A DNA stretch of 64,000 nt from Daucus carota subsp. sativus. Lineage: Eukaryota > Streptophyta > Magnoliopsida > Apiales > Apiaceae. The position numbers were made by a program, and so were the translations under genes. The first letter of the stretch is position 1. Each line of letters begins with the position of its first letter. The stretch covers positions 58,022,949 to 58,086,948 of the forward strand of contig NC_030383.2 of NCBI RefSeq assembly GCF_001625215.2, in the 5' to 3' direction. Under the pieces are notes generated by a model that was not told where the DNA came from, made no database searches, and saw only the letters and a program-made list of their open reading frames with translations. Of this stretch, positions 32,154 to 62,212 are shown piece after piece.

Positions 32154-32164
32154 AGGTCTACTTT

Positions 32165-33134: not shown

Positions 33135-34269
33135 ATGGCCATTACAAGATCCTTAACCAAAGAAAGCAAAAGCAAGCAACAATCTTGTTTCTGTCCTGCC
33201 TCCAGAAGTTATCGAATGGGAGATACTGCCTAGACTTTCTGTAAAATCACTTTTGCAATATAAGTCTGTTTGTAAATCCTGGAATTTGCATATCTCAACC
33301 GACCATAACTTCGTCAAGTCGCAGCTTCATCATAACCCCTGCAGAAACTCTCTCATACTGCATCATGGACTATGTCATGAAAGTTACTCTAACTCTTTGG
33401 TAGTTGGCTGCATTGATGGATTAGTATGTGTCTTCCGTTGGGTCGGCGATGCTTCAAAAGTATTGGAAATTGCGATTTGGAATCCTGCCACAAATCTGTG
33501 TTTGGTGATGCCTCCTCTTCCGAAGAGAAGTGTTGGAAGATATGATGTCCTTTTAGGATTTGGTTATGATTCGGTGGAGAATGATTTTAAGGTAATTTAT
33601 GGCTCCCTGATCGAAGAAAAACCATTAGCAGTTGATGTATATTCATGCAAAGCTGCTCGTTGGAAGAAAATTGCTCCCTCCAACATACTTTACCGCGGGG
33701 AAATTTATCAAGGAAGGAAGCCAATAATTTTCAATGGATCTCCTTTTTGGTTGATTTGGACGAGGCAGGACGCGGAAATCAGTCTGGTTGTGATATCGTT
33801 TGATGTTCGCCTCGAGGTTTTCAGGTTGCTGCCTAGGTTCAGTTGTATTCACAATAACTACTTAAAAACATTTGTTCTCATGAATTTCATGGATTCTTTT
33901 GCGATCATGGTCTACGATGAAAGAATGTATTTTCTAGTACCAATTGATGTTTATATTTTCAATCAGAGAAGTAGCGTTTGGAACAAGAAGATATCTATTG
34001 GACCATTCATATGTGAAGAGCCAAATATTTTGTTGCATAGCATAGTACCGTGTTCTAGGAATGGTGACATTTTATTTCTGAATGCCCATGGTTGCAGATT
34101 ATATGGCGTCAATCCCAAAACCCATACAATCAAATTACTTAAAGACGGCTCCTTTCCAGAACAGATCACATATAACTGCTTCAACTACTCAGAAAGCCTG
34201 AGTTTTGTTAAGGGGATGAAGCCCCTTTCCGACAAAAGATATGAAGGCAATTTCATATTTCTTCACTGA
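33135..34269 (+). pseudogene. F-box copy P1, frameshifted and C-terminally truncated
   Basis: Starts with the ATG shared by the array (33135), but one extra A near 33161 (ACCAAAGAAAGC where the paralogs have ACCAAGAAAGC) shifts the frame before the F-box. The F-box and FBA frame then runs open from 33190 to 34269. It ends at a TGA where paralogs read AGA, losing the last 13 residues (ELAPSYQYI end). The long internal frame still encodes KSVCKSWN, GFGYDSVENDFKVIYG and the rest of the FBA domain. Its duplicate P5 (46820-48591) lacks the frameshift, so the defect probably arose after duplication. A shorter product from an internal Met cannot be excluded. Confidence 0.85.
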
Positions 34270-34440
34270 GAGACACTAGAGCTTGCCCCTAGTTATCAAT
34301 ATATATGATTCAGTACATGTTTTCTACTTAGAACCTGCTTCTTTAATTATTGTGCCTTTTATTCTGAGTTTTTTCATTTACTGAGAAAATTTTGGAATAC
34401 TACTATCAGTCAGATCTATATACTTGATGTACAGTGAGAT

Positions 34441-34660
34441 TCGTCGTAAAACAGTCAAGAATCATCTCTTACCTTCCTCTCCATTTTCGCTAGCTGTTCT
34501 TGTGAGCACTAGCTATACTTATGTTCAATGTCTCTAAAACGCTCCCTTTGCAACACAATAAAATTCTGTACAAGAACCAACAAAGTGTCAATATTTCTTC
34601 AAGAAGCTAGCTACTTATCAAAATCTTCCAAAGAACCCTCATCTTTCACACCAAATTTTT
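34441..34660 (+). pseudogene. 5' remnant of the 31542 gene
   Basis: Aligns by eye with 31380-31660: ACAGTCAAGAATCATCT, a decayed start region at 34521 (ATGTTC), AAAATTCTGTACAAGA, GTCAATATTTCTTCAA, GCTACTTATCA and the CTTCCAAAGA equivalent of the LPKT codons. The frame is broken and the 3' half is absent. Confidence 0.75.
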
Positions 34661-35347
34661 ATATTTGTCAACTATAGTCCATATGTGGATACACAGGTAG
34701 CTACTAAAATCCTATTAAAAAAACCAACAAGATTTCTAATTTCTGTATCTGTATCTGGCCCTGTCGAATGGTGCTCAATTTCTGGCTGACATTTCACCTT
34801 ATGTTCTAATTGTTCAGGCTCTTGTGTAACAATTTTAAAGAGTTTAACGAGAATATAACATAAATTTAATTACGAGTGCATTTATTTTTATTTATTTTAA
34901 TTTTATAGATAAGTGAAAAATTTATATTAAGTTAGTTTTGTACAAATTTATTTTCATTAAGTTTAATATTACATTATTACTTTTATAATACAAATTTTGT
35001 TATTATTTTTAAAGACGCGAATTTAACTAAATATATTTGTCATAATTCATAGTTACATAAACTTAAAAAATTGTATGTTCACTTAATTTTGTAAAATATT
35101 GGATGAACCGCTAGAAAATTACTTATCAAATTTAGTTGATTAATTTAATAGTATGCTTTAGATACTTTATCAATATATTGTTCTAATGATATTAGGATTA
35201 CGGATACTATAAGATAGAGAGGACAAATATCTGCTCTTCAATTCCGAATCAAAACTGATTTATGTTTTCTCATGTAGTTCTTTGTTATAAGAAGTTATAC
35301 AGTCTTATATAAGGACTCGTAACTTTGTCCAAAGTTTAATATCAAAC
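34661..35347. other. intergenic, upstream of F-box P2
   Basis: Nearly identical to 50790-51456 in block B. The last 140 bp are the array-wide upstream block. No other feature. Confidence 0.7.
35306..35314 (+). promoter_or_regulatory. candidate TATA box of F-box P2
   Basis: TATATAAGG about 34-42 bp upstream of the ATG at 35348, within a 140-bp block conserved upstream of all array members. The same motif is at 33093 before P1. P6 and P4 have TTTATAAGG, and P3 and P7 have lost it. The small distance to the ATG implies a very short leader if this box is used. Confidence 0.5.
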
Positions 35348-36532
35348 ATGGCCATTACAAGATCCTCAACTAAGAAAGCAAAAGCAAGCAACAATCTTGT
35401 TTCTGTCCTGCCTCCAGAGGTTATTGAATGGGAGATACTGCCTAGACTTCCTGTGAAATCACTTTTGCGGTTTAAACTTGTTTGTAAATCCTGGAATTTG
35501 CTTATATCAACCGACCATAATTTCGTCAAGACGCAGCTTCATCATAACCTCAGCAGAGACTCTCTCATACTGCAGCAAGAAAGTTTCTATAACTCTTTTG
35601 TAGTTGGCTGCATTGATGGATTAGTATGTGTCTTCCGTTGGGTCAAGGATGCTGCAAAAGTGGATATTGCGATTTGGAATCCTGCCACAAATCTGTGTTT
35701 GGTGATACCACCTCTTCCAAAGAGAAGTGTTCGAAGATATGATGTCCTTTTAGGATTTGGTTACGATTCGGTGGAGAATGATTTTAAGGTAATGTATGGT
35801 TCCCTGACCGAAGAAAAACCATTAGCAGTTGATATATTTTTATGCAAAGCTGCTTGTTGGAAGAAAATAGCTCCCTCCAACATCCTTTACCGCGGGGAAA
35901 TTTATCCAAAAAGGAAGCCAATAATTTTCAATGGATCTCCTTTTTGGTTGAATGAGAAGAGGCAGGATGCAGAAATCATTCTGGTTGTGATATCGTTTGA
36001 TGTTCGGCTCGAGGTTTTCCGGTTGCTGCCTAGTTTCAGTTGTATTGACAAAAACAAATTAAAAACATTTGTTCTCATGAATTTCATGGATTCTTTGGCG
36101 ATCATGGTCTACGAAGAGGGAATGTATTTTGTAAAACCAATTGATGTTTATATTTTTAGTCAGAGAAGCGGTGTTTGGAACAAGAAGATATCTATTGGAC
36201 CATTAAAGTTGAAGGAGATTCCTATTGGAAAATTAAGAATACCTGAGACAACTATTGAGCTGCATAGCTTAAAACCTTGTTCTTGGAATGGTGACATTCT
36301 ATTTCTTAATGCCCATCGTTGCAGATTATATGGCGTCAATCCCAAAACTCATACAATCAAATTACTTAAAGACAGCTCATTTGCAGAACGGATATATAAT
36401 TGCTCCAACTACTCAGAAAGCCTGAGTTTTGTTAAGGGGATGAAGCCCCTTTCCGACAAAAGATATGAAGGCAGTTTCATATTTCTTCACAGAGAGATGC
36501 TGGAGCTTGCCCCTAGTTATCAATATATATAA
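35348..36532 (+). CDS. F-box protein with FBA domain (P2), intact
   Basis: Single-exon gene of 394 residues; predicted SKP1-binding substrate receptor of an SCF ubiquitin ligase. The F-box is at about 19-60 (VLPPEVIEWEILPRLPVKSL, then KLVCKSWNLL). A type-1 F-box-associated domain follows with VGCIDGLVCVFRW at about 83-95, IWNPATNLCLVIPPLP at about 105-120, GFGYDSVENDFKVMYG at about 134-149, and a C-terminal LELAPSYQYI. The start matches the MAITRS... start of all plus-strand paralogs. It lies in block A; its block-B twin P6 (51457-59296) is split by a copia element. Unlike the minus-strand F-box genes it shows no second exon. No disabling change is seen. Confidence 0.9.
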   Translation: MAITRSSTKKAKASNNLVSVLPPEVIEWEILPRLPVKSLLRFKLVCKSWNLLISTDHNFVKTQLHHNLSRDSLILQQESFYNSFVVGCIDGLVCVFRWVKDAAKVDIAIWNPATNLCLVIPPLPKRSVRRYDVLLGFGYDSVENDFKVMYGSLTEEKPLAVDIFLCKAACWKKIAPSNILYRGEIYPKRKPIIFNGSPFWLNEKRQDAEIILVVISFDVRLEVFRLLPSFSCIDKNKLKTFVLMNFMDSLAIMVYEEGMYFVKPIDVYIFSQRSGVWNKKISIGPLKLKEIPIGKLRIPETTIELHSLKPCSWNGDILFLNAHRCRLYGVNPKTHTIKLLKDSSFAERIYNCSNYSESLSFVKGMKPLSDKRYEGSFIFLHREMLELAPSYQYI

Positions 36533-36731: not shown

Positions 36732-37486
36732 GATTAGAGCAAGTCCAACAGTGTCCTAGTTGGAGCCTTAAATATAATATATTAGAGCAAGTCCAAGAGT
36801 GCCTCAAATTGTTGTCCTAAGTTAAAATTTAGGGCATTTGATAAAAAAAACTGCTCCAACAATGTCCTAGTGATGCCTTATATCACTAGGACAACTCCAT
36901 CAAGCCTTATTTTTGAGGCACACTCTCTCCTTGCCCTATCTCATATTTTATAATAAATATCTATCTACACCCTCTTTCTCTCTCTACTTTCTATTATGTT
37001 TTAATGAAGAAAGTGAACTTTCAATAATAAAATATTAAACAAATAGAGAAAATAAGGCACATTGTTGGAGTTGAAGTTGGTTGAATATGTCCTAAACTAC
37101 TAGGACATAATTTTTTATATTATATTTAGGGCTTCAACTAGGACACTGTTGGACTTGCTCTTATGTCCTAGTAGTTTAGGACATATTCTACCGACTTCAA
37201 CTCCAACAATGTGCCTTATTTTCTCTATATGTTTAATATTTTATTATTAAAAGTTCACTTTCATCATTAAAACATAATATAAAGTAGAGAGAGAAAGAGA
37301 GTGTTGGTAGAAATTTATTATAAAATATGGGATAGGGCAAGGAGAGAGAGTGCCTCAAAAATAGGGCTTGGAGAGGTTGTCCTAGTGATATAAGGCATCA
37401 CTAGGACATTGTTGGAGCAACCTTTTTTATCAAATGCCCTAAATTTTAACTTAGGACATGATATAGGGCTTCTCTTGGACTTGCTC
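36732..37486. mobile_element. Tourist/PIF-like compound foldback, TTA target duplication
   Basis: Missing from the block-B counterpart at about 59494, where ACTCGGTTAG runs straight into the Stowaway. TTA flanks both ends. The GAGCAAGTCCAA end motif occurs near 36738 and 36785 and inverted near 37150 and 37470. The two halves (36783-37160 and 37164-37486) are inverted copies of one MITE, so it looks like a nested or head-to-head pair. Non-coding. Confidence 0.82.
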
Positions 37487-37489
37487 TTA

Positions 37490-37700
37490 CTCCCTCCATC
37501 CCAAATTAGATGACCACTTTGACTTTGGGCACACAATTTAAGGTTCATTGACTGTATTTTTAAAATTTTATTTTTGCTAATAAAAATTAAAATATGAAAT
37601 TTTTATTTACAAAAGAAAAAATAAATTTCGGAAATAGACGGTCAATGCACCTAAAGTTACGTGCCCAAAGTCAACTAGTTCATCTAATTTGGGATGGAGG
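37490..37700. mobile_element. Stowaway-like MITE, block A copy
   Basis: Starts CTCCCTCCATCCCAAATTAG and ends CTAATTTGGGATGGAGG. The same element is at 59496-59700, so it predates the block duplication. Confidence 0.85.
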
Positions 37701-37804
37701 TAATAATTAATCTTAATTTAGTCATACGTCAATTTAAAATATTCAAATAATTGATGACTCTCTTGAAACTGTCTACTCCCTTATTTGCCTATATACACTA
37801 CTAT

Positions 37805-39395
37805 GGGTCCTGTTCCCTGACATGTGGTTGTCAGGAAACGTTTATTTGACAACCTACTCCCCAGCCGTTGGATCGACGATCCAACGGCTGGGACAAAAGA
37901 TTCAGTTTTTAAGTGTCCGCGGTTAAAAACCGCGGACACTAGGTCTTTCCGCGTGTTTCTCCTGCGGACACACATGCCTATCCGCGGTTAATAACAGCGG
38001 ACAACACAGATTGTGAAAACCCTAAGTGTCTACTTCTAAAAAAATATGAAATTATACTCTCTTTTTTTTTTTTGAATTTATGGATTTAGATGATTATTAT
38101 GATTAAACTAATTTTGTTTTGAATAAATAACAATTAACTTTATTTTATATTATATGTTTAGAATTCTTTGTTTATATATTTTTAATAGTTAGTAGATTAT
38201 TATTAAAATTATCATTATTACCTATACATTCTAATCTTAGTATTTTATCATAAATTTAATTGTTATTTTTTTAAATTTTTTTTATTGATTGACTAATTTT
38301 TTTGTGAATAGTTAATATAGAATTTTTATTCTTGTCACATATTATATATTATAAGTATTATTTATTTTTTGTGTTATATAAAATATATTTAAATTCAATT
38401 TATTTAACAAAAATATAAAATGCTACTTAGACAATGTATGTTTTTAGACGTTTATGCTAAATATTTTTGTATTTTCTCGATCCTTCTTGCTTTCTAGCTG
38501 CATGGTTTGCTGTTTATATTGTTTTTTTCTTTTACTTTAACAAGCTTGTGTAATGTTGTAAAAGACTTTGTGGTTAGGGTGATATTTATGTACTTAAAGA
38601 GAATATATAATAAATATTATTCTCTTTTATGTGGTATATATAACACATAAATATTATTCTCTGTAAAATATATAAATATTATTCTTTTTATTGGATATAT
38701 ATACCACATAAATATTATTCTCTTTTAAATTAATTTAAAACTTAAAACAAGAAAAACGTCTAAAAAATATACATTGTCTAAGTAGCATTTTATATTTTTG
38801 TTAAATAAATTAAATTTAGATATATTTTATATAACACAAAAAATAAATAATACTTATAATATATAATATGTGACAAGAATAAAAATTATATATTAACTAT
38901 TCACAAAAAAATTAGTCAATCAATAAAATAATTTAAAAAAATAACAATTAAATTTATGATAAAATACTAAGATTAGAATGTATAGGTAATAATGATAATT
39001 TTAATAATAATCTACTAACTATTAAAATATATAAACAAAGAATTCTAAACATATAATATAAAATAAAGTTAATTGTTATTTATTCAAAACAAAATTAGTT
39101 TAATCATAATAATCATCTAAATCCATAAATTCAAAAAAAAAAAGAGTATAATTTCATATTTTTTTAGAAGTAGACACTTAGGTTCACAGTCTGTGTTGTC
39201 CGCTGTTATTAACCGCGGGTAGGCATGTATGTCCGCGGGAGAAACACGCGGAAAGACCTAGTGTCCGCGGTTTTTAAGCGCGGACACTTAAAAACTGAAT
39301 CTTTTGTCCCAGCCGTTGGATCGTCGATCCAACGGCTGGGGAGTAGGTTGTCAAATAAACGTTCCCTGACAACCACATGTCAGGGAACAGGACCC
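37805..39395. mobile_element. Mutator-like foldback transposon with 650-bp inverted arms
   Basis: 1591 bp, starting GGGTCCTGTTCCCTGACA and ending TGTCAGGGAACAGGACCC. The 9-bp duplication CACTACTAT flanks it (37796-37804, 39396-39404), and the unoccupied site is present once at 59796-59804. The arms (about 37805-38453 and 38753-39395) are inverted copies around a 300-bp spacer. The outer 230 bp contain smaller GC-rich hairpins, such as 37861-37891 and 37912-37940. No transposase frame, so non-autonomous. The 9-bp duplication and long inverted arms place it with Mutator-like elements. Confidence 0.92.
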
Positions 39396-39833: not shown

Positions 39834-40092
39834 CTCCCTCCGTCTCCTTTTATATTTCCTTGTTTGACTTTTGATCAGTCAAATTGACTATATTTTGACT
39901 GAAATTTTACATATATCATATAATTCGAAAAATAATAAAAATATGTCATTAGAAAGTATATTTAGTGTATTTTAATATGCAATTTTCAGATTTCGAAAAT
40001 AATGAAGAGATAATTTGTAATGTTTAGTCAAAATTTGGTCAATTTGACTGGTCAAGAGTCAAATGGTGACATGTAAAAGGGGATGGAGGGAG
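39834..40092. mobile_element. Stowaway-like MITE, block A copy
   Basis: Ends CTCCCTCCGTCTCC and GGGGATGGAGGGAG, flanked by TA. Nearly identical to 60234-60492 in block B. Confidence 0.9.
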
Positions 40093-40597: not shown

Positions 40598-41803
40598 ATG
40601 GCTATTACAGGATCCTTAACCAAGAAAGCAACAGAAAGCAACAATCTTGTTTCTGTCCTGCCTCCAGAAGTTATTGAATGGGAGATACTGCCTAGACTCT
40701 CTGTAAAATCACTTTTACAATATAAATCTGTTTGTAAATCCTGGAATTTGCTTATCTCAACCGACCATAATTTCGTCAAGTCGCAGCTTCATCATAACCT
40801 CAGCAGAGACTCTCTCATACTGCATCAAGTAAGTTTCTATAACTCTTTTGTAGTTGGTTGCATTGATGGATTAGTATGTGTCTTCCGTTGGGTCAAGGAT
40901 GCTTCAAAAGTGGATATTGCGATTTGGAATCCTGCCACAAATCTGTGTTTGGCGATACCACCTCTTCCAAAGAGAAGTGTTCGAAGATATGATGTCCTTT
41001 TAGGATTTGGTTATGATTCGGTGGAGAATGATTTTAAGGTAATTTATGGTTCCCTGATTGAAGAAAAACCATTAGCATGTGATGTCTATTCATGCAAAGC
41101 TGCTTGTTGGAAGAAAATTGCTCCCTCTAACATACTTTACCGCGGGAAAATTTCTCAAAAATGGAAGCCAATAATTTTCAACGGATCTCCTTTTTGGTTG
41201 ATTCGGAAGAGGCAGGACGCAGAAATCAGTCTGGTTGTGATATCGTTTGATGTTCGGCTCGAGGTTTTCAGGTTGCTACCTAGTTTTAGTTGTGTGGCCA
41301 CTAAAAACTTCAGAAAATTTGTTTTCACGGATTTCATGGATTCTCTTGCGATCATGGTCTATGATGTGGGAAGGTATTCTGTAGAACCAATTGATGTTTA
41401 TATTTTTAATCAGATAAGTAGTGTTTGGAACAAGAAGATATCTATTGGACCAATTATATGTAAAGAGCCGGATATTAAGTTGAAGGAGATTGCTATTGGA
41501 ACATTTATAAGAATACCTGAGACTATTATGTTGCATAGCATAATACCGTGTTCTAGGAATGGTGACATTCTATTTCTGAATGCCCGTAGTTGCAGATTAT
41601 ATGGCGTCAATCCCAAAACCCATACAATCAAATTACTTAAGGACGGCTCATTTCCAGAACGGATATATAATTGCTTCAACTACTCTGAGAGCCTGAGTTT
41701 TGTTAAGGGGATGAAGCCCCTTTCCGACAAAAGATATGAAGGCAGTTTCATATTTCTTCACAGAGACACGCTAGAGCTCGCCCCTAGTTATCAATATATA
41801 TGA
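40598..41803 (+). CDS. F-box protein with FBA domain (P3), intact
   Basis: Single exon, 401 residues from the ATG at 40598, which matches the paralog start MAITGSLTKKA; an in-frame upstream ATG at 40559 adds 13 residues with no paralog counterpart at P2. F-box at about 19-60 (VLPPEVIEWEILPRLSVKSL), followed by a complete FBA domain with IWNPATNLCLAIPPLP and GFGYDSVENDFKVIYG, ending LELAPSYQYI. Compared with P2 it carries an insertion near 280-305 (ICKEPDIKLKEIAIGTFIR). Its 3' half closely follows P7 (60989-62212), while the stretch coding YNSFVVGCIDGLVCVFRWVKD follows P2/P6, so it looks mosaic. The upstream block lacks the TATATAAGG motif of P1 and P2. Confidence 0.89.
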   Translation: MAITGSLTKKATESNNLVSVLPPEVIEWEILPRLSVKSLLQYKSVCKSWNLLISTDHNFVKSQLHHNLSRDSLILHQVSFYNSFVVGCIDGLVCVFRWVKDASKVDIAIWNPATNLCLAIPPLPKRSVRRYDVLLGFGYDSVENDFKVIYGSLIEEKPLACDVYSCKAACWKKIAPSNILYRGKISQKWKPIIFNGSPFWLIRKRQDAEISLVVISFDVRLEVFRLLPSFSCVATKNFRKFVFTDFMDSLAIMVYDVGRYSVEPIDVYIFNQISSVWNKKISIGPIICKEPDIKLKEIAIGTFIRIPETIMLHSIIPCSRNGDILFLNARSCRLYGVNPKTHTIKLLKDGSFPERIYNCFNYSESLSFVKGMKPLSDKRYEGSFIFLHRDTLELAPSYQYI

Positions 41804-44938: not shown

Positions 44939-45348
44939 TAAGTTATTTATTTTCAAAAAATTATAAATATTTTTTTTCAAAATAACCAAAGTATACATAT
45001 GACTTTTATCTCTGCATAAACTCGTATAGTTGGCTGCATCGATATATTAGTATGTATCTTCGGTTAGCACAAGGATGCTTTAATTGTAATATTATAATAT
45101 TATTTTTATAATAAAATTTCATTATTATATTTAAAGACATACATTTATGTGATTAGTTCCTTTTTGGGCAAATATAGGATTATGGATATTCATATCCTGA
45201 GATGGAGAGGACAAATATCTGCTCTTCAATTCCAATTCCGAATCAAAACTAAATTATGTTTTTTCATGTAGTTCTTTATTAAAAGAAGTTATACACAACT
45301 TATGTCTTTATAAGGACTCGTAACTTTGTCCAAAGTTTCATATCAAAA
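44939..45348. other. intergenic, upstream of truncated F-box P4
   Basis: Resumes the host sequence shared with 39460 onward, then the array-wide F-box upstream block with TTTATAAGG before the ATG at 45349. A short GTTGGCTGCAT fragment of F-box coding sequence is embedded near 45030. No gene. Confidence 0.6.
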
Positions 45349-45606
45349 ATGGTCATTACAAGATCCTTAACTAAGAAAGCAAATGCAAGCAACGATCTTG
45401 TTTCTGTCCTGCCTCCAGAAGTTATTGAATGGGAGATACTGCCCAGACTTCCTGTGAAATCACTTTTGCGGTTTAAATCTGTTTGTAAATCCTGGAATTT
45501 GCTTATCTCAACCGACCATAGTTTCGTCAAGACGCAGCTTCATCAGAACCTCAGCAGAGACTCTCTCATACTGCAGCAAGAAAGTTTCTATAACTCTTTT
45601 GTAGTT
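45349..45606 (+). pseudogene. F-box copy P4, only the N-terminal F-box part
   Basis: About 86 residues from the shared start through the F-box (VLPPEVIEWEILPRLPVKSL, KSVCKSWNLL) to YNSFVV match the paralogs. At about 45606 homology stops abruptly and the frame runs on into unrelated sequence to a stop at 45715-45717. The FBA domain is absent. If expressed, it would be a SKP1-binding F-box without a substrate domain, a possible dominant-negative form, but it is more simply a truncated duplicate. Confidence 0.88.
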
Positions 45607-48899: not shown

Positions 48900-49021
48900 C
48901 AGTGGCGGAACCAGAGGGGGCTAGGGGATGCTAGAGCCCCCCCTAACCTCGAAAAAACAGTGCATATTTTTTTTTCCAGCCCCCGCTGAATTATTGATGT
49001 CAGTATAATTCAGGGCACTTA

Positions 49022-50267
49022 GAACGTGTCCAAAAGATACTTTATAACATGTTCTAAGTCATAATTTAGGGTATTTGAAGAAAAATGTTGATCCAACAAT
49101 ATCCTAGTGATGCTTTATATCATTAGCAGGCCCGGTTCTGAGGGTAGGCCAGAGGGGCAGTGGCCTAGGGCCCAAGACTGAGAGGGGCCCAAAAATTTTA
49201 AGTTATTTAATTATGTTATTTTTTTGTCAAAAAATTATTATTTTCATTTATATTAATATTTTTAAGGTAGAAAATATTAAAATTATTTTTGTTAAAATAA
49301 TTATTATTTTTGAGCTATTTTTTTACATAGAAAATATTAAAATTGATTGACAAAATAATTAAATTAATAAATAAGAAAAATGAAAGAAAATATTAAAAGG
49401 CAAGAGAACTTGTCGATAAGAAAAAAGTGATACATAAGAAATAATACAACAGATCCATAACACATTACACATCCAAATACCTAACCCAATTTTATTTCAG
49501 CTCGCTGCTCGTCTCTCCTTCTCCCCTCATATCCATCTCTTCCGTCTCCATTTAATCTGAATACTTCCCAAAAAAAACAAGGCGTTATAACCACTAAATC
49601 TCTTGGAATTTTCATCTATTCTTAACTATGACAACTATTTCTTTCTACAATTTAAATAGAGATAAGTTGTAGTTGGAAGGTGCATCACTTGTGAGGTTTA
49701 TCATCTATGAATTGAAGTTATTCAGAGATTCTGCAATTGATAAATCAAGGGTTTCTTGGTCATCAATGAGCATCTCGGAAAGCTCGTAAAACTTATTTTT
49801 TTATGAGATGTTAGATTGTGTATTATGTCATTACTTATAAATTATTTGGAACTTTTTTGTAATATATTTTAGTAAAATTTTTGCCAGGGATTGTTTAGTT
49901 AGCTTACTGTTCTTGGGTCGTTGGATGAATATCCAGAGGTCAGGATTATATTAAAAATTTTAACATGTCCAGCATTTTTTTACCGCTGGACCGGGATCTT
50001 CTCATGGCCGCCGGATATTCATCCAACGACCCAAAACTTGTGTGTTACTTCACTCCTCCACAGCCATTAATGATTGTGGACCGCTACCCTAAAAAAGGCC
50101 CCAATTTTATTTTTTGCCTAGGGCCCCTGAAAGTTCAGGATCGGGCCTGATCATTAGGACAACCTTTTCCGACCTTATTTATAAGGCACCTTTGTCTCCT
50201 TGCTCTATACTATATTTTCTAATAAATTCTTATATACACTCTTTTTCTCTCTACTTTGGACTTGCTC
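49022..50267. mobile_element. Tourist/PIF-like MITE interrupted by a hAT element
   Basis: TTA duplication on both sides (49019-49021, 50268-50270) and ends GAACGTGTCCAAAAG and GGACTTGCTC, related to the foldback at 36732 (shared TCCAACAAT, CCTAGTGATG, ATAAGGCAC). About 215 bp once the hAT element at 49127-50149 is removed. Confidence 0.8.
49127..50149. mobile_element. nested hAT-like element, CAGGCCCGG ends
   Basis: 1023 bp with ends CAGGCCCGGTTCTGA and TCAGGATCGGGCCTG and an 8-bp duplication ATCATTAG (49119-49126, 50150-50157). Inside, GGGTCGTTGGATGAATATCC near 49916 recurs inverted near 50013-50032, a further internal foldback. No transposase seen. Confidence 0.9.
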
Positions 50268-50293
50268 TTAGTCTAAAGAGAGATTAACAAATA

Positions 50294-50554
50294 CTCCCTT
50301 TCATCCTAATTTAGATGAGATTTTTACTTATTTCACACATATTAAGGAGTATCAAAAGATTGTTCTTTTTTCTATCTCTGCCCATATTTATTATGTTGAC
50401 TTATCATAACATTGGTTAGATGGTATATTGGAAATGATAAATAAGAAAGGGTAAGATGAAAAATTGTTGATACATGTGCATTGAAAAGAAAGAGACTTAA
50501 CTATTTCGGAATAAAAAATTTTCTCAAAAGGATCATCTAATTTGGGATAGAGAG
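50294..50554. mobile_element. Stowaway-like MITE nested in the hAT element
   Basis: Left end CTCCCTTTCATCCTAATTTA and right end CTAATTTGGGATAGAGAG, flanked by TA. Related to the copies at 37490 and 59496. Confidence 0.82.
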
Positions 50555-52216
50555 TACATTCAAAAAGATACACTCATAAGTCATACGCACTCACTTGACA
50601 ATCCCCTAACTCAACATATCACTGTTATAAATTCATTCAACGGCGAACCCGTGACAATCTACTCAGTTGCGCTTTCGAATTTGAGCCCCCTAAGATTTAC
50701 TCCTGGTTCCGCCACTGATTTCTTCAAGAAACTAGCTACTTATCAAGATCTTCCAAATAACCCTCATCTTTCACACCAAATTTTTATATTTGTCAAGTAT
50801 AGTCCATATGTGGATACACAGGTAGCTACTAAAATCCTATTAAAAAAACCAACAAGATTTCTAATTTCTGTATCTGTATCTGGCCCTGTCGAATGGTGCT
50901 CATTTTCTGGCTGACATTTCACCTTATGTTCTAATTGTTCAGGCTCTTGTGTAACAATTTTAGAGAGTTTAATTATGAGTGCATTTATTTTTATTTATTT
51001 TAATTTTATAGATAAGTGAAAATTTTATATTAAGTTAGTTTTGTACAAATTTATTTTCATTAAGTTTAATATTACATTATTACTTTTATAATACAAATTT
51101 TGTTATTATTTTTAAAGAGGCGAATTTAACTAAATATATTTGTCATAATTCATAGTTACATAAACTTAAAAAATTGTATGTTCACTTAATTTTGTAAAAT
51201 ATTGGATGAACCGCTAGAAAGTTACTTATCAAATTTAGTTGATAAATATTAATAGTATGCTTTAGATACTTTATCAATATATTGTTCTAATGATATTAGG
51301 ATTAGGGATACTATAAGATAGAGGACAAATATCTGCTCTTCAATTCCAAATCAAAACTGATTTATGTTTTCTTATGTAGTTCTTCGTTATAAGAAGTTAT
51401 ACACAACTTATGTCTTTATAAGGACTCGTAACTTTGTCCAAAGTTTAATATCAAATATGGCCATTACAAGATCCTCAACTAAGAAAGCAAAAGCAAGCAG
51501 CAATCTTGTTTCTGTCCTGCCTCCAGAAGTTATTGAATGGGAGATACTGCCTAGACTTCCTGTGAAATCACTTTTGCGGTTTAAACATGTTTGTAAATCC
51601 TGGAATTTGCTTATCTCAACCGACCATAATTTCGTCAAGACGCAGCTTCATCATAACCTCAGCAGAGACTCTCTCATACTGCATCAAGTAAGTTTCTATA
51701 ACTCTTTTGTAGTTGGTTGCATTGATGGATTAGTATGTGTCTTCCGTTGGGTCAAGGATGCTTCAAAAGTGGATATTGTGATTTGGAATCCTGCCACAAA
51801 TCTATGTTTGGTGATACCACCTCTTCCGAAGAGAAGTGTTCGAAGATATGATGTCCTTTTAGGATTTGGTTATGATTCGGTGGAGAATGATTTTAAGGTA
51901 ATGAATGGTTCCCTGATCGAAGAAAAACCATTAGCAGTTGATGTATATTCATGCAAAGCTGCTTGTTGGAAGAAAATAGCTCCCTCCAACATCCTTTACC
52001 GCGGGGAAATTTATCCAAAAAGGAAGCCAATAATTTTCAATGGATCTCCTTTTTGGTTGAATGAGAAGAGGCAGGATGCTGAAATCAGTCTGGTTGTGAT
52101 ATCGTTTGATGTTCGGCTCGAGGTTTTCAGGTTGCTGCCTAGTTTCAGTTGTATTGACAAAAACAAATTAAAAACATTTGTTCTCATGAATTTCATGGAT
52201 TCTTTGGCCATCATGG

Positions 52217-53026
52217 TGTTGTAAAAATGCTCCTGCAGATTTGGTTAGCCAGCATATACATATAACCAAAACCGTAAACTTAAGTTCCAACAGTAATACA
52301 ATTGTTTCCAGAGGCAAACTAATATAATGAAAACAGATGGAAAACAGAGCACCAACGCAAAAAAATTGCAGAATAAATCAACAAGACTAACAAGCAAATT
52401 GGAGATAAAAAATCTGAAATATAGATTGAATTAACAGGGTTTAGAGAGTGGCCTGGTGAGGCGTGTGAAAACACTGCCCTAAGGAATAGTGCCCCTTCTC
52501 GTGCAAGGTTTTTGTGGCAACTCCTTAGCGGTACAACACCCAATTTAGTTTTCCTTTTCCGTGCACGAAGGATCAGGATATCAACAAAGTTTTTCCGATG
52601 CTCCAAATTAACACCCACAAAATACTAATTGTACAATTATATAACCCAATTGATATGTATATGTAACTAGATGTGTGATATAGAGAAGGAGGAAGGAGAA
52701 TAGCTATTGTAGATATAGCGAGATTATGAATTGATGCTTATCACTACTCCTGATTGTCAAGCGTAGTTATATAGGAACTCAAAAAGTAACAGCCGCAAGC
52801 TCTTTACTAGTATGTATTAAAAGAGAAGATATGGTCTTAATGTAAAAACCAGAAACGTGCAAAGCAACGGGAGGAAAAGCAACGGGAGGAAAAATAAATA
52901 AAAGATATTGACTAATCTTTGTCAATAAATAATTGTTGACTAAAACCAAAACCCAAATGGATAAGGCAAATTATATCTTTTAAATTTTATTTTTATAATT
53001 AACATATATTTGGCAAATATATAACA
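52217..53026 (-). repeat. 3' LTR of the copia element
   Basis: Lies at the lower-coordinate end because the element is reversed. Preceded on its coding strand by the polypurine tract. Contains a 99-codon open frame also present in the other LTR, which has no domain and is not called. Confidence 0.95.
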
Positions 53027-53608
53027 ATCCCCCCCAAAATAAAATTTAAAACAACCAAATTAATACAGCAAATATAATATGGAGCTTATGTTATTATGTA
53101 TTCAACACGGGTAGCTTCCGGCTTGGAACCCGCGCCTAGTGACATTTGTCGCATTTTGAAGAAACTAAGTGGACTAGGCCTGGAACTTGAATCTTTTAAC
53201 CAAAAATTGACAAAAGCACACATAATACGGAAAAACAATTGTTAGGGCTTGCGCTATAATGGCCATGCGCAATAACCGACTCATGAGAGTTTTAGAGATT
53301 AGCCCGTACCTCATAGTTGCGGCCACACAACTCCTCTCACGTAGGTAAGTCCTCAAAGGTATTAGTGAACGGATAAATACCTTGCAAATTCTGCCTTAAG
53401 ACTTATTAAGAGTATAAATACTCAACCTTACCGTTCACTATATGAGCACTTCATCATCATAGGAATGGGGTAGAAGAATGTATCTATGTACATCTTCTAA
53501 GGAGTATTACTCCTTATATTGAAGGCTCACACACAATCATCTATTCAGCTTGTTTCTACCCTTGGAACTTATTAAACAAGTAGGGTTGCCACTGTCGATG
53601 ATGCATAA

Positions 53609-56600
53609 TTATGGACTTAACCCCATTCCCCTCGATGAATCTAGGATCTTTTTCCTAGATAGACCCTTTGTCAAAGGATCCGATAAATTCTCTTCTGACC
53701 TTACAAAATCTAAGGTCACATAATCTCTCATCAAGCGCTTGATTGATTTGTAACGTATTTGCAGATGCCTATTCAATTTAGCATTAACAGTTTCCTGTGC
53801 CAGTAAGTCAAGAACAGCAGTAGAATCACAATGTACATGAACAGGTGGAACAATTTTAAACAAAAACGATAAGTCAAGTAACAAATTACGAAGCCATTCA
53901 GCTTCCAAACATGTAGTGTCAAGAGCAATTAACTCAGCATCAGATGTACTTCTAGCAATTATAGTTTGTTTAACGGAACCCCAAGATATAGCACCACCAC
54001 CAAACAAAAATATAAAACCGGAAGTGGATTTTACTTGACGTGAATCAGTTACCCAATTTGCATCAGAATATCCTTCTAGTAAATCAGGATGACCACTATA
54101 TATAAGTGAATAATCTATAGTGCCTTTTAAATACTTAAGTACTCTCTCTAAAGCTGTCCAATGTTCTTGACTTGGGTTACTTGTATATCTACTAAGTCTT
54201 CCTACAGCATAAGATATGTCAGGTCTTGTTCTATTTGAGATGTATAGTAGAGAGCCTATTATTTGAGAGTATTTATGTTGTGAAATAGGATTGCCTTTAT
54301 TTTTATTAAGAGCTACACTCGAGTCATAAGGTGTTGATACAGGTCTACAATCCATATAATTATATTTTTTAAGCATTTTCTCAATTGAATGACTTAATGA
54401 TATGTGAATCCCCTTTTCACTTCTAAAAATTCTCATTCCTAAAATCACATTTGCCTCTCCTAAGTCTTTCATATCAAAATTTTTAGAAAGATAATTTTTA
54501 ATATCAACAATACAAGACATTGATCTACTAAAAATTAAAATATCATCCACATAAATGCATATAATGACATATTCATCACCAATCACTTTATAATATAAAC
54601 ATTTATCATATTCATTTGAAACAAATCCATATTTAGTAATCACACAATCAAATTTTTTAAACCAATCTTTAGAGGCTTGTTTTAAACCATATATCGATTT
54701 TACTAACCTACATACTTTATTTTCTTTCCCTTTTACTATAAAACCTTCTGGTTGTTCCATATAAATTTCTTCCTCTAAATCACCATTTAAAAAGGCTGTT
54801 TTAACATCCATTTGGTGTATATGTAATTTATAAATAGAAGCTAAGGCTAGGAGAGTCCTAATAGTGGTTATGCTAGCTACAGGTGAATATGTGTTAAAAT
54901 AATCAATTCCTTTCTTTTGTGTAAACCCTTTAGCAACTAACCTAGCTTTGTACTTATCTACAGATCCATCAGGCCTCAATTTTTTCTTAAATACCCATCT
55001 ACACCCTACAGTTTTAAAACCTTTAGGTAAGTCAGTTAAATGCCAAGAATTATTCTCCAAAAGAGATTTCATTTCACTATCTATGGCTTCTTTCCAAAAA
55101 GGAGCATCTGGTGAAGACATAGCTTCCGAATAAGTAGATGGTTCACCTTCAACAGAATAAACAAGAAAATCATCTCCATAATCTTTTTCTATCCTACCTC
55201 TTTTACTTCTTCTAGGTTCTTCTAATGATGTTGATGTACTAGGAATGTTTGACATTGAATTAGAACTAGAGCTAGCGACTTGTTTTAGCATCCTAGTCTT
55301 ATAAGGAAAAATATCCTCAAAATAGGTTGCATCTCTAGCCTCAATAATAGTATTAGGGGAAACATCGGGATTATCAGAATGAATTACAAGAAACCTATTT
55401 GTTGTACCTTGAGTATACCCTATAAAGATAGCATCTACTGTTTTAGATCCTATTTTTCTTTTCTTTGGTTCTGGAATTCCTACTTTAGCCAAACAACCCC
55501 AAACTTTGAAATAATCAAGTTTTAGACTTCTATTTTTCCAATATTCATAAGGTGTAATATTAGTGGTTTTATTAGGAATTCTATTTAACACATAACAAGC
55601 GGTGAGCAATGCCTCACCCCAAAGATTTTCGGGAGCACCTGAACTTACAAGCATACAATTTATCATATCTAGCAAAGTCCTATTTTTTCTTTCAGCGACA
55701 CCGTTAGATTGTGGAGTGTAAGGGGCTGTAACTTCGTGAATTATTCCATGTTCTTGGCAAAATTGTGTAAAATCATTATCCATATATTCTCCACCTCTAT
55801 CGGATCTAAGAATTTTAATACTTTTTTCAGTTTGTTTTTCAACCTCGGCTTTATAAATTTTAAAATTTCCTAAAACCTCGTCTTTAGTCTTAAGAAGGTA
55901 TACATAACAATACTTAGAATAATCATCAATAAAAGTTACAAAATATCTTCTACCACCTCTAGTAAGAACCTTACCACTATCACACACATCACTATGAATT
56001 AATTCTAGTAATGAAGAGTCTCTAGCAATATTTGGAAAAGCCTTTCTAGTGTGTTTGCATTGTGCACATATTTCACATTTTGTTCTTTCCTTAATATTAT
56101 GATTTGGGAGTAATCCTTTATTAATCATTCTTTGTATTGTACCATAATTAACATGTCCTAGTCTTTCATGCCACAAAGAAGAATTTTCAGTATTTAGGAC
56201 AATTGGAGAGATTTCATTATTAATAAGATTAGGAGAAACATTCAATTTTATTAATCCTTCACATACATAACCTTTACCAATAAATACATTACTCTTGGAG
56301 ATTACAACTTTATTAGAGTCCATAACAATGCGATAACCTACACTAAGAAGAATTGAACTACTAATGAGATTTCTCCTAATTGTAGGTACATGTAGAACAT
56401 TATTAAGAACTAAGATTTTTCCAGATGTAAATTCCAAATTTATTCTTCCTCTTCCACTCACTTGAGCTACCGAATCATTTCCAAGGATTACATTTCCTCC
56501 ACTTGATTCCTGATAATTTGAAAACCATGAACGTTCATTACACACATGAATATTAGCTCCAGAGTCTAACCACCAATCATTAGAGTTATAGATTGTATTA

Positions 56601-57601
56601 TTTATTAAAGGGATAGAATTTTCTAACCTAAATGAATTATTCGGAGTTCCCTCAATCATGTTGACTTGATGTTTTGGAGCGGCTTTGAAGCGATTACTGG
56701 CTTGAACAGGTTGAGTTTTCTTGTAGAAACATTGAGGAGCAAGATGATTTGTTCTTCCACATACATAACAATGTTTTTGATTGTTCTTGGAACCACCATT
56801 AGACTTATAAGAGTTTTGATTTTGATTTTGGGAATATTTTGATGGGCCTTTATTATGAAATTTATTCCCACTGTTTTTGAAATTTCTATTTTTGGGTTTA
56901 AAAGAGCTCTTGTGGCGATTTGGATTTTTGGATTCCTCGGTGAGATTGACTTTAGGGGAAACTTCAATTTTAGACTTCTCGTTTTGCCTATGTTCGTTTT
57001 CAATACGGACTTTCACAATAGCATTATTAAGAGTGAGAGATGATTGATTGTGGCGAAGTTCTCTAGCAAAATCAGACCAACTAGGAGGGAGTTTATCGAT
57101 GAGATTTGAAACTTTGAATTCTTCGGAAAATTTAGAACCTTTGGACTCGAGATATCTGACATGATCTTGAAAAGTGTGTAATTGATCTCCTATAGGTTTA
57201 TCATTTACCATTTTAAAATTATAAAAGGAGGATGCACTAAACCTATGGGCACCAACATCATCAAAACCATACTCGGTTTCTAAAGCTTCCCATAATTCTT
57301 TAGCCGAATCAAACTCACAATATATATCATATAAGGTATCCGACAAGGCACTAAGAATTCTATTTAAGCAAAGATAATCTTGATCTTTAGTGGGTTTTGT
57401 TGGAGTAGAAGATGTGGGTGCTAAAGTTTCGGTTTGTGGAGTTGAAGTAGAAGTCTCTTTACTAGTATTTTGATATTCCAAAACACTTATAAGGCCTAAG
57501 GTGGTTAACCAAAATCTCATTTGTTTTTGCCAACGCTTAAAATTCAATCCACTAAATTTCTCGGGTTTAGCCGAGCGAATGTCGTCTCTTGTATCCGCCA
57601 T
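53609..57601 (-). CDS. copia gag-pol polyprotein, open
   Basis: Single uninterrupted frame of 1330 residues from the ATG at 57601, chosen because it starts MADTRDD with a copia-type gag; an open extension upstream to 57826 is hydrophobic leader translation and is not counted. Order of domains: copia-type gag; zinc knuckle CYVCGRTNHLAPQC at about 276-289; aspartic protease with DSGA at about 349; integrase with the WHERLGH zinc-binding start at about 477 and catalytic core (HSD, then DRGGEY) at about 530-620; reverse transcriptase with YVDDILIF at about 1017; and RNase H near the C-terminus with DAELIAL. Order IN before RT defines Ty1/copia. All key motifs are present with no stop or frameshift. 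Confidence 0.96.
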   Translation of the reverse strand: MADTRDDIRSAKPEKFSGLNFKRWQKQMRFWLTTLGLISVLEYQNTSKETSTSTPQTETLAPTSSTPTKPTKDQDYLCLNRILSALSDTLYDIYCEFDSAKELWEALETEYGFDDVGAHRFSASSFYNFKMVNDKPIGDQLHTFQDHVRYLESKGSKFSEEFKVSNLIDKLPPSWSDFARELRHNQSSLTLNNAIVKVRIENEHRQNEKSKIEVSPKVNLTEESKNPNRHKSSFKPKNRNFKNSGNKFHNKGPSKYSQNQNQNSYKSNGGSKNNQKHCYVCGRTNHLAPQCFYKKTQPVQASNRFKAAPKHQVNMIEGTPNNSFRLENSIPLINNTIYNSNDWWLDSGANIHVCNERSWFSNYQESSGGNVILGNDSVAQVSGRGRINLEFTSGKILVLNNVLHVPTIRRNLISSSILLSVGYRIVMDSNKVVISKSNVFIGKGYVCEGLIKLNVSPNLINNEISPIVLNTENSSLWHERLGHVNYGTIQRMINKGLLPNHNIKERTKCEICAQCKHTRKAFPNIARDSSLLELIHSDVCDSGKVLTRGGRRYFVTFIDDYSKYCYVYLLKTKDEVLGNFKIYKAEVEKQTEKSIKILRSDRGGEYMDNDFTQFCQEHGIIHEVTAPYTPQSNGVAERKNRTLLDMINCMLVSSGAPENLWGEALLTACYVLNRIPNKTTNITPYEYWKNRSLKLDYFKVWGCLAKVGIPEPKKRKIGSKTVDAIFIGYTQGTTNRFLVIHSDNPDVSPNTIIEARDATYFEDIFPYKTRMLKQVASSSSNSMSNIPSTSTSLEEPRRSKRGRIEKDYGDDFLVYSVEGEPSTYSEAMSSPDAPFWKEAIDSEMKSLLENNSWHLTDLPKGFKTVGCRWVFKKKLRPDGSVDKYKARLVAKGFTQKKGIDYFNTYSPVASITTIRTLLALASIYKLHIHQMDVKTAFLNGDLEEEIYMEQPEGFIVKGKENKVCRLVKSIYGLKQASKDWFKKFDCVITKYGFVSNEYDKCLYYKVIGDEYVIICIYVDDILIFSRSMSCIVDIKNYLSKNFDMKDLGEANVILGMRIFRSEKGIHISLSHSIEKMLKKYNYMDCRPVSTPYDSSVALNKNKGNPISQHKYSQIIGSLLYISNRTRPDISYAVGRLSRYTSNPSQEHWTALERVLKYLKGTIDYSLIYSGHPDLLEGYSDANWVTDSRQVKSTSGFIFLFGGGAISWGSVKQTIIARSTSDAELIALDTTCLEAEWLRNLLLDLSFLFKIVPPVHVHCDSTAVLDLLAQETVNAKLNRHLQIRYKSIKRLMRDYVTLDFVRSEENLSDPLTKGLSRKKILDSSRGMGLSP

Positions 57602-58057
57602 ATTAATTGTTAACTGTAATTTAATCAATTCACTATATGTCAAAATAATAATATATAATAATAGGACAAGAAGCAATATTTTAAATAACAAGTCAAAAAC
57701 AGCAAATATGATATTAAAACTAGTCGAATAAAATAATAAGGTACAACTGAATTTTAGTATGCAATCCAACACAGAGCTACAAAACAAATATATATGTGGT
57801 TTAGTTGGACACACTTGATCATACAAAACTTAACACAGAAAGTCAAAGTTTCCGATTTTATAAGTTCACAGGTTATGCTTTACTGGTGCTTATATTAAGT
57901 CTGTATTGGCAAGATTAGTGTGCCTGACTATAAGAATCCAAAAGAAGCCAACAATACAAATAATTTTAGCAGACTAGTTTATTATGTACTAACTAAACAC
58001 ATGTACAAAGATGTTGATCAAGCAGAGTAAACAACAAAAACTACTATTCCTTAGATT

Positions 58058-58866
58058 GTTGTAAAAATGCTCCTGCAGATTTGGTTAGCCAGCATATACA
58101 TATAACCAAAACCGTAAACTTAAGTTCCAACAGTAATACAATTGTTTCCAGAGGCAAACTAATATAATGAAAACAGATGGAAAACAGAGCACCAACGCAA
58201 AAAAATTGCAGAATAAATCAACAAGACTAACAAGCAAATTGGAGATAAAAAATCTGAAATATAGATTGAATTAACAGGGTTTAGAGAGTGGCCTGGTGAG
58301 GCGTGTGAAAACACTGCCCTAAGGAATAGTGCCCCTTCTCGTGCAAGGTTTTTGTGGCAACTCCTTAGCGGTACAACACCCAATTTAGTTTTCCTTTTCC
58401 GTGCACGAAGGATCAGGATATCAACAAAGTTTTTCCGATGCTCCAAATTAACACCCACAAAATACTAATTGTACAATTATATAACCCAATTGATATGTAT
58501 ATGTAACTAGATGTGTGATATAGAGAAGGAGGAAGGAGAATAGCTATTGTAGATATAGCGAGATTATGAATTGATGCTTATCACTACTCCTGATTGTCAA
58601 GCGTAGTTATATAGGAACTCAAAAAGTAACAGCCGCAAGCTCTTTACTAGTATGTATTAAAAGAGAAGATATGGTCTTAATGTAAAAACCAGAAACGTGC
58701 AAAGCAACGGGAGGAAAAGCAACGGGAGGAAAAATAAATAAAAGATATTGACTAATCTTTGTCAATAAATAATTGTTGACTAAAACCAAAACCCAAATGG
58801 ATAAGGCAAATTATATCTTTTAAATTTTATTTTTATAATTAACATATATTTGGCAAATATATAACA
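58058..58866 (-). repeat. 5' LTR of the copia element
   Basis: Matches the LTR at 52217-53026 throughout. As the upstream LTR on the coding strand it should carry the promoter, but I did not pick a TATA box with confidence. Confidence 0.95.
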
Positions 58867-59700: not shown

Positions 59701-60233
59701 TAGTAATTAATCTTAATTTAGTCATACGTTAATTTAAAATATTCAAATAATTGATGACTCTCTTGAAACTGTCTACTCCCTTATTTGCCTATATACACTA
59801 CTATAACCACAGACACGGTATTCTTGTTGTTTATGATAATTTTACACTATCATTTTCATAAATAAATCGCTTATTTTCGAGAAATTATAAATACTTTTTT
59901 CCAAAATAAACCAAAGTGTACATCTGGCTTTTATCTCTACTTGATAGATTACTATGTACAAGGATGCTTTAAAAGTATTTATATAAATTTTTTAGTTGAC
60001 TTCGAGTTTGTCTTTTAAATATTTTATAATATTAATATATGTTAATAATAGTAGGTTAATCTTTTTATTTTTTAACTAATTGTAAATTATATTTAAAAGG
60101 ATAACAGTGGAGTTTATATAGTGTTTTTAATGTTTAGTGATGTAAGAGTAAGAGAACTCTACTTATTACAGACTTTTGGTTATAAAGTGACATAAATAAA
60201 CATAACCAAAATTTTGAACTACAAATTATACTA

Positions 60234-60492
60234 CTCCCTCCGTCTCCTTTTACATTTCCTTGTTTGACTTTTGATCAGTCAAATTGACTATATTTTGACT
60301 GAAATTTTACATATATCATATAATTCGAAAAATAATAAAAATATATCATTAGAAAGTATATTTAGTGTATTTTAATATGCAACTTTCAGATTTCGAAAAT
60401 AATGAAGAGATAATTTGTAATGTTTAGTCAAAATTTGGTCAATTTGACTGGTCAAGAGTCAAATGGTGACATGTAAAAGGGGATGGAGGGAG
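60234..60492. mobile_element. Stowaway-like MITE, block B copy
   Basis: Ends CTCCCTCCGTCTCC and GGGGATGGAGGGAG with TA flanks. Twin of 39834-40092, so older than the block duplication. Confidence 0.9.
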
Positions 60493-60988
60493 TATTATTT
60501 ATTGCTTTCTGTTTGTCTTGGAGTAGACAAAATAAAAATTAAAAAAGGTTACAGAGTTTTCTATATTGTAAATAGGTACTAGAAGTAATATGTATTTTAT
60601 TATATTTTTAAATATATTTTTAAAATATTAATATATGTTATTAATAATAATTTTCTTTGACTAATTATAAATTATATTTTCCATAATTTTTATTGTTAAA
60701 ATTTATAAAAATTGAATATTATTAATCTATAAAAAAAAGAATATTAGATTGACGAAAATTTTGAACCACAAATTATAGCAATGTTGATGTTTTAAATAAT
60801 TTTTCTCAAACAAAACTATTTAATATATTGTTAGAATGATATTAGGGTAATAAATACAATAAGATAGAGAGGACATCAGCTCTTCAATTCCGAATCAAAA
60901 CTGATTTATGTTTTCTTAGTGGCTCTTTATTATAAGAAGTTATACCCAACTTATGTCTACTAACTTTGTCCAAAGTTTAATATCAAAC

Positions 60989-62212
60989 ATGGCTATTACA
61001 GGATCCTTAACCAAGAAAGCAACAGCAAGCAACAATCTTGTTCCTGTCCTGCCTGCAGAAGTTATTGAATGGGAGATACTGCCTAGACTCTCCGTAAAAT
61101 CACTTTCGCAATATAAATCTGTTTGTAAATCCTGGAATTTGCGTATCTCAACCGACCATAATTTCATCAAGTCGCAGCTTCATCATAGCGACCTCAGCAG
61201 AGCCTCTCTCATACTGCATCAAGAAGTAGGTCATGAAAATTACTTTAACTCTTATATAGTTGGCTGCATTAATGGATTAGTATGTGTCTTCCGTTGGCAC
61301 GCGGATGCTTCAAAAGAATTAGAAATTGCGGTTTGGAATCCTGCCACAAATCTGTGCTTGGTGATACCACCTCTTCCGAAGAGAAGTGTTAGAAGATGTA
61401 ATGTCATTTCAGGATTTGGTTATGATTCTGTGGAGAATGATTTTAAGGTAATGTATGGTTCCCTGATTGAAGAAAAACCATTAGCAGTTGATGTATATTC
61501 ATGCAAAGCTGCTTGCTGGAAGAAAATTGCTCCATCCAACATACTTTACCGCGGGAAAATTTCTCAAAAATGGAAGCCAATAATTTTCAATGGATCTCCT
61601 TTTTGGTTGATTCAGAAGAGGCAGGACGTGGAAATCAGTCTGGTTGTGATATCGTTTGATGTTCGGGTCGAGGTTTTCAGGTTGCTGCCTAGTTTCAGTT
61701 GTATGGACAATAACAACTTTAAAAGATTTGTTCTCATGAATTTCATGGATTCTTTTGCGATCATGGTCTATGACGTGCGAATGCATTCTGTAGAACCAAT
61801 TGATGCTTATATTTTTAATCAGATAAGTAGTGTTTGGAACAAGAAGATATCTATTGGACCAATTATATGTAAAGAGCCGGATATTAAGTTGAAGGAGATT
61901 GCTATTGGAACATTTATAAGAATACCTGAGACTATTATGTTGCATAGCATAATACTGTGTTCTAGGAATGGTGACATTCTTTTTCTGAATGCCCGTAGTT
62001 GCAGATTATATGGCGTCAATCCTAAAACCCATACAATCAAATTACTTAAGGACGGCTCATTTGCAGAACGGATATATAATTGTTTAAACTACTCTGAGAG
62101 CCTGAGTTTTGTTGAGGGGATGAAGCCCCTTTCCGACAAAAGATATGGAGGCAATTTCATATTTCTTCACAAAGAGACACTAGAGCTTGCCCCTAGTTAT
62201 CAATATATATGA
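60989..62212 (+). CDS. F-box protein with FBA domain (P7), intact
   Basis: Single exon, 407 residues from the ATG at 60989 (paralog start MAITGSLTKKA; an in-frame ATG at 60953 adds 12 residues). F-box at about 19-60 (VLPAEVIEWEILPRLSVKSL), with one Pro-to-Ala change against the paralogs. FBA domain complete: VGCINGLVCVFRW, VWNPATNLCLVIPPLP, GFGYDSVENDFKVMYG, and the ICKEPDIKLKEIAIGTFIR insertion shared with P3; it ends LELAPSYQYI. It is the block-B twin of P3 but differs most in the stretch around residues 70-145, where P3 resembles P2/P6. Predicted SCF receptor as for P2; substrate unknown. Confidence 0.9.
   Translation: MAITGSLTKKATASNNLVPVLPAEVIEWEILPRLSVKSLSQYKSVCKSWNLRISTDHNFIKSQLHHSDLSRASLILHQEVGHENYFNSYIVGCINGLVCVFRWHADASKELEIAVWNPATNLCLVIPPLPKRSVRRCNVISGFGYDSVENDFKVMYGSLIEEKPLAVDVYSCKAACWKKIAPSNILYRGKISQKWKPIIFNGSPFWLIQKRQDVEISLVVISFDVRVEVFRLLPSFSCMDNNNFKRFVLMNFMDSFAIMVYDVRMHSVEPIDAYIFNQISSVWNKKISIGPIICKEPDIKLKEIAIGTFIRIPETIMLHSIILCSRNGDILFLNARSCRLYGVNPKTHTIKLLKDGSFAERIYNCLNYSESLSFVEGMKPLSDKRYGGNFIFLHKETLELAPSYQYI

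Follow-up and report, generated by a model that had tools for sequence, protein, structure and literature searches.

In a 64,000-base window of the carrot genome (Daucus carota subsp. sativus, contig NC_030383.2; no Ns, 67% A+T), an array of F-box genes contains two collinear blocks, A with the genes P1, P2 and P3, and B with the genes P5, P6 and P7. The locus probably goes back to a recent duplication that arose when F-box paralogs recombined; gene conversion would then have altered patches of it, and transposons inserted. An older tandem F-box array would have been enlarged by a young copy of the stretch that begins at the P1 start codon, includes P2 and ends near the start codon of P3, and the copying probably proceeded via ectopic recombination between the 5′ ends of paralogous genes. 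Five transposons, each of a different kind, would subsequently have inserted, two in A and three in B, while short ectopic gene conversions among the paralogs would have replaced pieces of coding and promoter sequence. The pair P3/P7 looks older than the rest: it may be situated outside the young copy, conversion may have overwritten it, or the two causes may combine. Half of the six block genes are no longer intact (P1 by a frameshift, P5 by a terminal-repeat retrotransposon in miniature, TRIM, and P6 by a copia element), as redundancy would allow, which suggests relaxed constraint.

The comparison by BLAST of positions 30001-44000 with 44001-64000, covering six full F-box gene copies in one window, directly revealed that block A (33135-42066) is collinear with block B (46820-62460). 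The chain consists of six segments of 93.4-99.3% identity with E-values from 0.0 to 2e-148 (Table 1), and its only large gaps are five insertions. The initial annotation had proposed that P1-P2-P3 aligns in order with P5-P6-P7, the intergenic DNA and two common Stowaways included, and the six collinear segments bear this out. Tandem paralogs are a known assembly trap, so that two haplotypes or array copies might have been wrongly joined. We consider such an artefact very improbable: in a self-comparison (matches of at least 100 bases) the flanks to the left of 32951 and 46610 and to the right of 42066 and 62460 had no long mutual match, cross-comparison of the flanks gave only short repeat and F-box matches, no Ns interrupt the window, and the pattern of divergence is a mosaic.

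Every one of the five insertions is flanked by a target-site duplication (TSD); two of them, as had been described, are confined to A (a foldback and a Mutator-like element, MULE), and three to B (the TRIM, a hAT-like element and the copia element). Empty sites had likewise been described in the opposite block, and a single target copy without the insert was indeed found at four of the five sites, but the foldback site is inexact, with block B lacking 5 bp beside the junction. Together, the empty sites and the TSDs support the view that the block was duplicated first and that each copy then received its own insertions. The claim that all five insertions came after the duplication draws on the same evidence, yet it presumes no exchange between blocks or paralogs, and paralog-like tracts are present (see below).

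The "dated order of events" read earlier from this locus was only partly upheld. With the insertions excluded, the intergenic DNA of the two blocks differs at 39/2746 sites (~0.014), or at 34/2741 without one patch of five sites; the alignment cut points lie up to 3 bases off the final element ends, which touches few junction columns. The long terminal repeats (LTRs) of the copia element are identical (0/810; p 6e-5 against the intergenic DNA) and thus clearly younger, whereas those of the TRIM (4/197; LTR proper ~195) are not distinguishable from the block (Fisher p 0.53). Plant substitution rates of 6.5e-9 to 1.3e-8 per site per year place the block at ~0.5-1.1 million years, the TRIM at ~0.8-1.6 million years and the copia element at less than 0.14-0.29 million years. 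Since the TRIM comes out nominally older than the block, the clock resolves little here, and it is the empty site, not the clock, that argues for "duplication, then TRIM". The copia element is the last of the two LTR elements by both its empty site and the clock. Dating all five insertions was abandoned, since a clock is available for none but the two LTR retrotransposons, and of these the TRIM is inseparable from the block; neither the divergence of the MULE arms (11 substitutions in 641) nor the identity of the foldback arms (86%) is usable for this purpose.

Divergence between the blocks is directly seen to be uneven. Intergenic DNA aligning no better than the coding sequences (CDSs) would have spoken against a block duplication, but it differs at 39/2746 sites as compared to 114/3523 summed over the three CDSs. 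The counts for single pairs are 11/1132 for P1/P5 (p 0.35 against the intergenic DNA), 27/1185 for P2/P6 (p 0.059) and 76/1206 for P3/P7 (p 2e-15), so only P3/P7 is clearly raised. At synonymous sites, the differences amount to 5/234 (p 0.39), 11/252 (p 0.002) and 23/258 (p 3e-10), respectively, corresponding to divergences of 0.022, 0.046 and about 0.094; the 12 other paralog pairs range from 0.12 to 0.16. A plain duplication of P1-P2-P3 that aged evenly, with a coding excess because F-box genes evolve fast or are under diversifying selection, would account for the simple gene order and the shared Stowaways, and the ratios of nonsynonymous to synonymous divergence, under 1 without being low (P2/P6 0.39, P3/P7 0.61), agree with it. 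We nevertheless regard it as unlikely: synonymous sites are raised in P3/P7 (~0.095 vs. 0.014 in the intergenic DNA) and in P2/P6, so that selection on the protein alone is not enough, and both the paralog-like tracts and the heterogeneity among segments speak against even ageing.

This heterogeneity is marked over seven core segments (9/566, 3/897, 21/723, 21/755, 7/630, 6/299 and 10/1193; p 3e-5), and because the distance between A and B varies about ninefold among them, one date for the whole duplication is insecure. The lowest segment, 33702-34600 (B 48004-48899), lies between the TRIM and hAT sites with 3/897 differences, directly before the segment with 21/723 past the hAT site; as low a 900-base window occurred in 15/1000 shuffles, and the lowest 600-base window was ordinary (176/1000). 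The low interval may reflect a recent conversion between A and B bounded by insertions, a hint that insertions may limit conversion. The same interval, and the TRIM LTRs being more diverged than this flank, would suit a duplication as old as the P3/P7 divergence implies (6% or more), after which conversion between the blocks homogenised the intergenic DNA and P1/P5. That history appears quite improbable, as the other segments all differ by 0.8 to 2.9%, which would take several independent conversions, each leaving the insertions in place, and as the P3/P7 excess starts at one edge (40601-40716).

Further evidence for the patching comes from the similarity of single genes to paralogs other than their partner. 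In the P3 tract (Table 1), 25 sites are P6-like and 3 P7-like, the corresponding counts over the remaining CDS being 19 and 60 (Fisher 1e-9). Upstream of P1 (columns 60-290), 23 sites are P2-like and 4 P5-like, with 7 and 89 in the CDS; reciprocally, the near promoter of P2 (columns 200-290) has 6 P1-like sites and no P6-like ones, with 10 and 76 elsewhere. The 3′ end of P7 is closer to P1 (18/278) and P5 (17/276) than to P3 (30/275; Fisher 4e-4). Differences are clustered within P1/P5 (six in 25 bases, 0/2000 shuffles) and, for P3/P7, were matched by 13/2000 shuffles at 100 bases, 52 at 50 and 247 at 25; P2/P6 is not clustered (534, 655 and 1211 of 2000 at the three window sizes). A pairwise fragment test reached p<=0.01 for 4/15 pairs in the CDS and for 6/15 with the 5′ region, including the block partners P3/P7 in both runs and P1/P5 in the second, together with three and four non-partner pairs. 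The tracts form the pattern expected from ectopic gene conversion among neighbouring paralogs, and their similarities suggest its direction.

The edges of the young copy were located by a three-rate likelihood, which placed change points at 33095-33137 and 40601-40716 (2 log units), i.e., at -40 to +2 and +3 to +118 relative to the start codons of P1 and P3; the three parts differ at 32/139, 79/5132 and 98/1370 sites. Counted from the start codons themselves, the blocks differ at 34/171 sites 5′ of P1/P5, at 77/5063 from the P1 start codon up to that of P3, and at 98/1407 from the P3 start codon to 42066 (CDS 76/1206, downstream 22/201). Edges at nearly the same gene position suggest recombination between paralogs. 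A simple unequal crossover between adjacent copies was set aside, since 6.2 kb (the P3 coding part, P4 and the P5 promoter) separates the copies; as they do not lie side by side as a single crossover would leave them, two exchanges or one templated repair would be needed. Because both edges are at start codons, a single repair event is conceivable, though we regard it as a tentative and rather unlikely reading of the sequence: a resident F-box gene would have been broken at its start codon, and the damage repaired by copying 7.5 kb from the P1 to the P3 start codon, such that the resident promoter would now precede P5, and its coding sequence (P7) would stand behind a P3-type promoter. The later insertions in B may bound stretches that are still convertible, as the scarcity of differences (3/897) between the TRIM and hAT sites hints.

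Several observations weigh against a young duplication by recombination between paralogs with subsequent conversion. In gene position, the two edge intervals touch without overlapping; on the left, an exchange between the P1 and P2 promoters may have erased or moved the edge as it first was, and on the right it could have been moved when P3 or P7 was converted. At columns >=1030, derived sites common to P3 and P7 number 5, to P7 and P8 (gene fragments near the window edge) 3, and to P3 and P8 0, counts that accommodate P7 as a copy of P3 as well as an older neighbour. The clustering in P3/P7 is weak at short windows. The intergenic DNA is itself uneven (21/723 at 34601-35347 vs. 10/1193 at 39396-40597), and its higher part equals the adjoining P2/P6 CDS (21/755 at 35348-36102); given this unevenness, the p of 0.059 and the lack of clustering, P2/P6 is not clearly special. 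In the fragment test, 11/15 pairs in the CDS and 9/15 with the 5′ region missed p 0.01. For the patches at 41278-41345 in P3 and at 47257-47298 in P5, and for two stretches of P7, the window yielded no close donor. Finally, the tract edges were picked post hoc, and the permutation tests presume even rates along the gene.

Table 1. Positions in the window of the chain segments, genes, tracts and elements at the locus (TIR, terminal inverted repeat; aa, amino acids; MITE, miniature inverted-repeat transposable element).
Feature	Position	Strand	Description
Chain segment 1	A 33007-33706 / B 46700-47390		BLAST
Chain segment 2	A 33701-34603 / B 48002-48902		BLAST
Chain segment 3	A 34593-36108 / B 50718-52217		BLAST
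Chain segment 4	A 36103-36732 / B 58867-59496		BLAST
Chain segment 5	A 37473-37804 / B 59476-59804		BLAST
Chain segment 6	A 39396-41925 / B 59796-62379		BLAST
P1, F-box-type gene	33135..34269	+	extra A near 33159 shifts the frame; stop 33231-33233, after 32 codons
P2, open F-box protein	35348..36532	+	394 aa; PF12937 and PF00646 above Pfam cut-off
P3, open F-box-type protein	40598..41803	+	401 aa; 414 aa from upstream ATG at 40559
P4, truncated F-box 5′ fragment between the blocks	45175..45606	+	DNA similarity
P5, partner of P1	46820..48567	+	CDS interrupted by TRIM, stop 47429; homologous CDS end approximate
P6, partner of P2	51457..59296	+	CDS interrupted by copia, stop 52222 just inside LTR; homologous CDS end approximate
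P7, open partner of P3	60989..62212	+	407 aa; 419 aa from ATG at 60953
P3 tract resembling P6/P2, not partner P7	40752..41041	+	0/1000 shuffles
P1 upstream/5′ tract resembling P2, not P5	32995..33202	+	permutation p 0.002
Foldback/MITE, A only	36737..37486	.	TIR GAGCAAGTCC, TSD TTA, PIF/Harbinger-like
MULE-like element, A only	37805..39395	.	~650-bp TIRs, 9-bp TSD CACTACTAT
TRIM retrotransposon, B only	47391..48002	.	LTRs ~195 bp, 4 differences, TSD AATTT, TGGTATCAGAG 3′ of 5′ LTR
hAT-like element, B only	48900..50717	.	TIR CAGTGGCGGAACCAG, 8-bp TSD ATTTCTTC
Copia-type LTR retrotransposon, B only	52217..58866	-	810-bp identical LTRs, 1330-aa open frame, TSD CATGG
Stowaway-like MITE 1, both blocks	A 37490..37703 / B about 59496-59703	.	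ends approximate
Stowaway-like MITE 2, both blocks	A 39834..40092 / B 60234-60492	.	ends read from sequence, palindrome in self-comparison

Matches to the N-terminal F-box PF12937 (cut-off 24.3) were obtained for P2, P5 and P6 (27.7, 25.7 and 26.5 bits), and P3 is just under the cut-off with 23.0 bits. P7 matches PF24750, the beta-propeller of At3g26010-like F-box proteins (30.8 vs. 25), with no F-box match in Pfam; the P1 open reading frame (ORF) searched, which starts at 33508, past the F-box part, gave no Pfam match. By DNA, P1, P3 and P7 are paralogs of P2. Elsewhere in the window, its edge (63023-64000) holds two fragments of F-box genes (P8) that include a partly repeated stretch, 63606-64000 being 92% identical to P7. 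A second tandem pair (18426-21107 and 21962-24646) is 85-89% identical, and its minus-strand ORF 22876-24135 encodes an F-box protein by Pfam. A 561-base palindrome at 27729-28289 (83% over 568 aligned columns) is probably another foldback element.

The assignment of the elements relies on their structure. The foldback element has TTA on both sides and inverted ends, but with the 5-bp difference at the empty site it is no more than a tentative PIF/Harbinger-Tourist candidate. The MULE-like element was classed by its 9-bp TSD and long TIRs. In the TRIM (612 bp), the motif after the 5′ LTR and the purine-rich end are what we take to be the primer-binding site and the polypurine tract; no ORF of at least 150 aa was found, this being the sole check on its coding capacity. 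A Cassandra origin was rejected: there was no 5S RNA match, and Rfam at gathering thresholds returned nothing over the window, while at E up to 1 over 47300-48100 the only match was PreQ1-III (18.1 bits vs. 63). The LTR 47391-47586 contains GTCCCACATCGG, presumably like a plant snRNA (small nuclear RNA) promoter element, followed by a TATA-like stretch; a literature search for TRIMs, the upstream sequence element and CCCACATCG in any pairing returned no papers. The hAT-like element has the 8-bp TSD and short inverted ends of its class and is probably non-autonomous; five stop-to-stop frames of at least 60 aa overlap it, the longest internal one being of 79 aa, and one of 137 aa crosses the element end. 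It contains stretches related to the foldback element of A (49028-49126 and 50150-50257) and a Stowaway-like end near 50537 (up to 4 mismatches), and for this reason it is probably composite or nested. In the copia element, which has a 5-bp TSD, the integrase (rve, 533-630) precedes the reverse transcriptase (RVT_2, 850-1092), as is typical of its class. Both Stowaways have a TA TSD and a CTCCCTCC-type TIR; in the first, the first TIR base is altered in B, and the right end is degenerate in A and B.

The processes at work here, i.e., the copying of an F-box array, transposon insertion and conversion, are all well known, and the locus is ordinary in kind. The plant F-box superfamily is described, in the part of PMC7829749 used here, as large, with diverse family sizes and genomic drift. 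The clustered genes, recent duplicates and broken copies of the carrot locus resemble this picture; unlike in accounts of drift, the events are resolved base by base in one locus, and nothing falls outside that frame. As a bias on the ages of tandem duplicates, GC-biased conversion is judged unlikely to matter much in the sections of PMC6118310 drawn on here, where conversion rates are not estimated. In contrast, tracts are located here, and import from a third paralog makes coding sequences look older, not younger. In Caenorhabditis paralogs, interlocus gene conversion raises variation within genes, according to the portion of PMC3966223 considered. Similarity likewise switches along the genes studied here, but the organism is different and several patches lack a donor within the window.

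Taken together, the locus is a compact case where duplication, conversion and insertion are partly separable at the base level, and its mosaic of ages is more instructive than a dated order, which is weaker than the initial annotation claimed. It also carries two warnings: synonymous dating of one and the same block gives 0.022, 0.046 or 0.094 according to which gene pair is used, and the TRIM and the duplication are not separable by LTR clocks. Provided that the edges have lain at the start codons from the outset, events of this kind can exchange the promoters of F-box genes.

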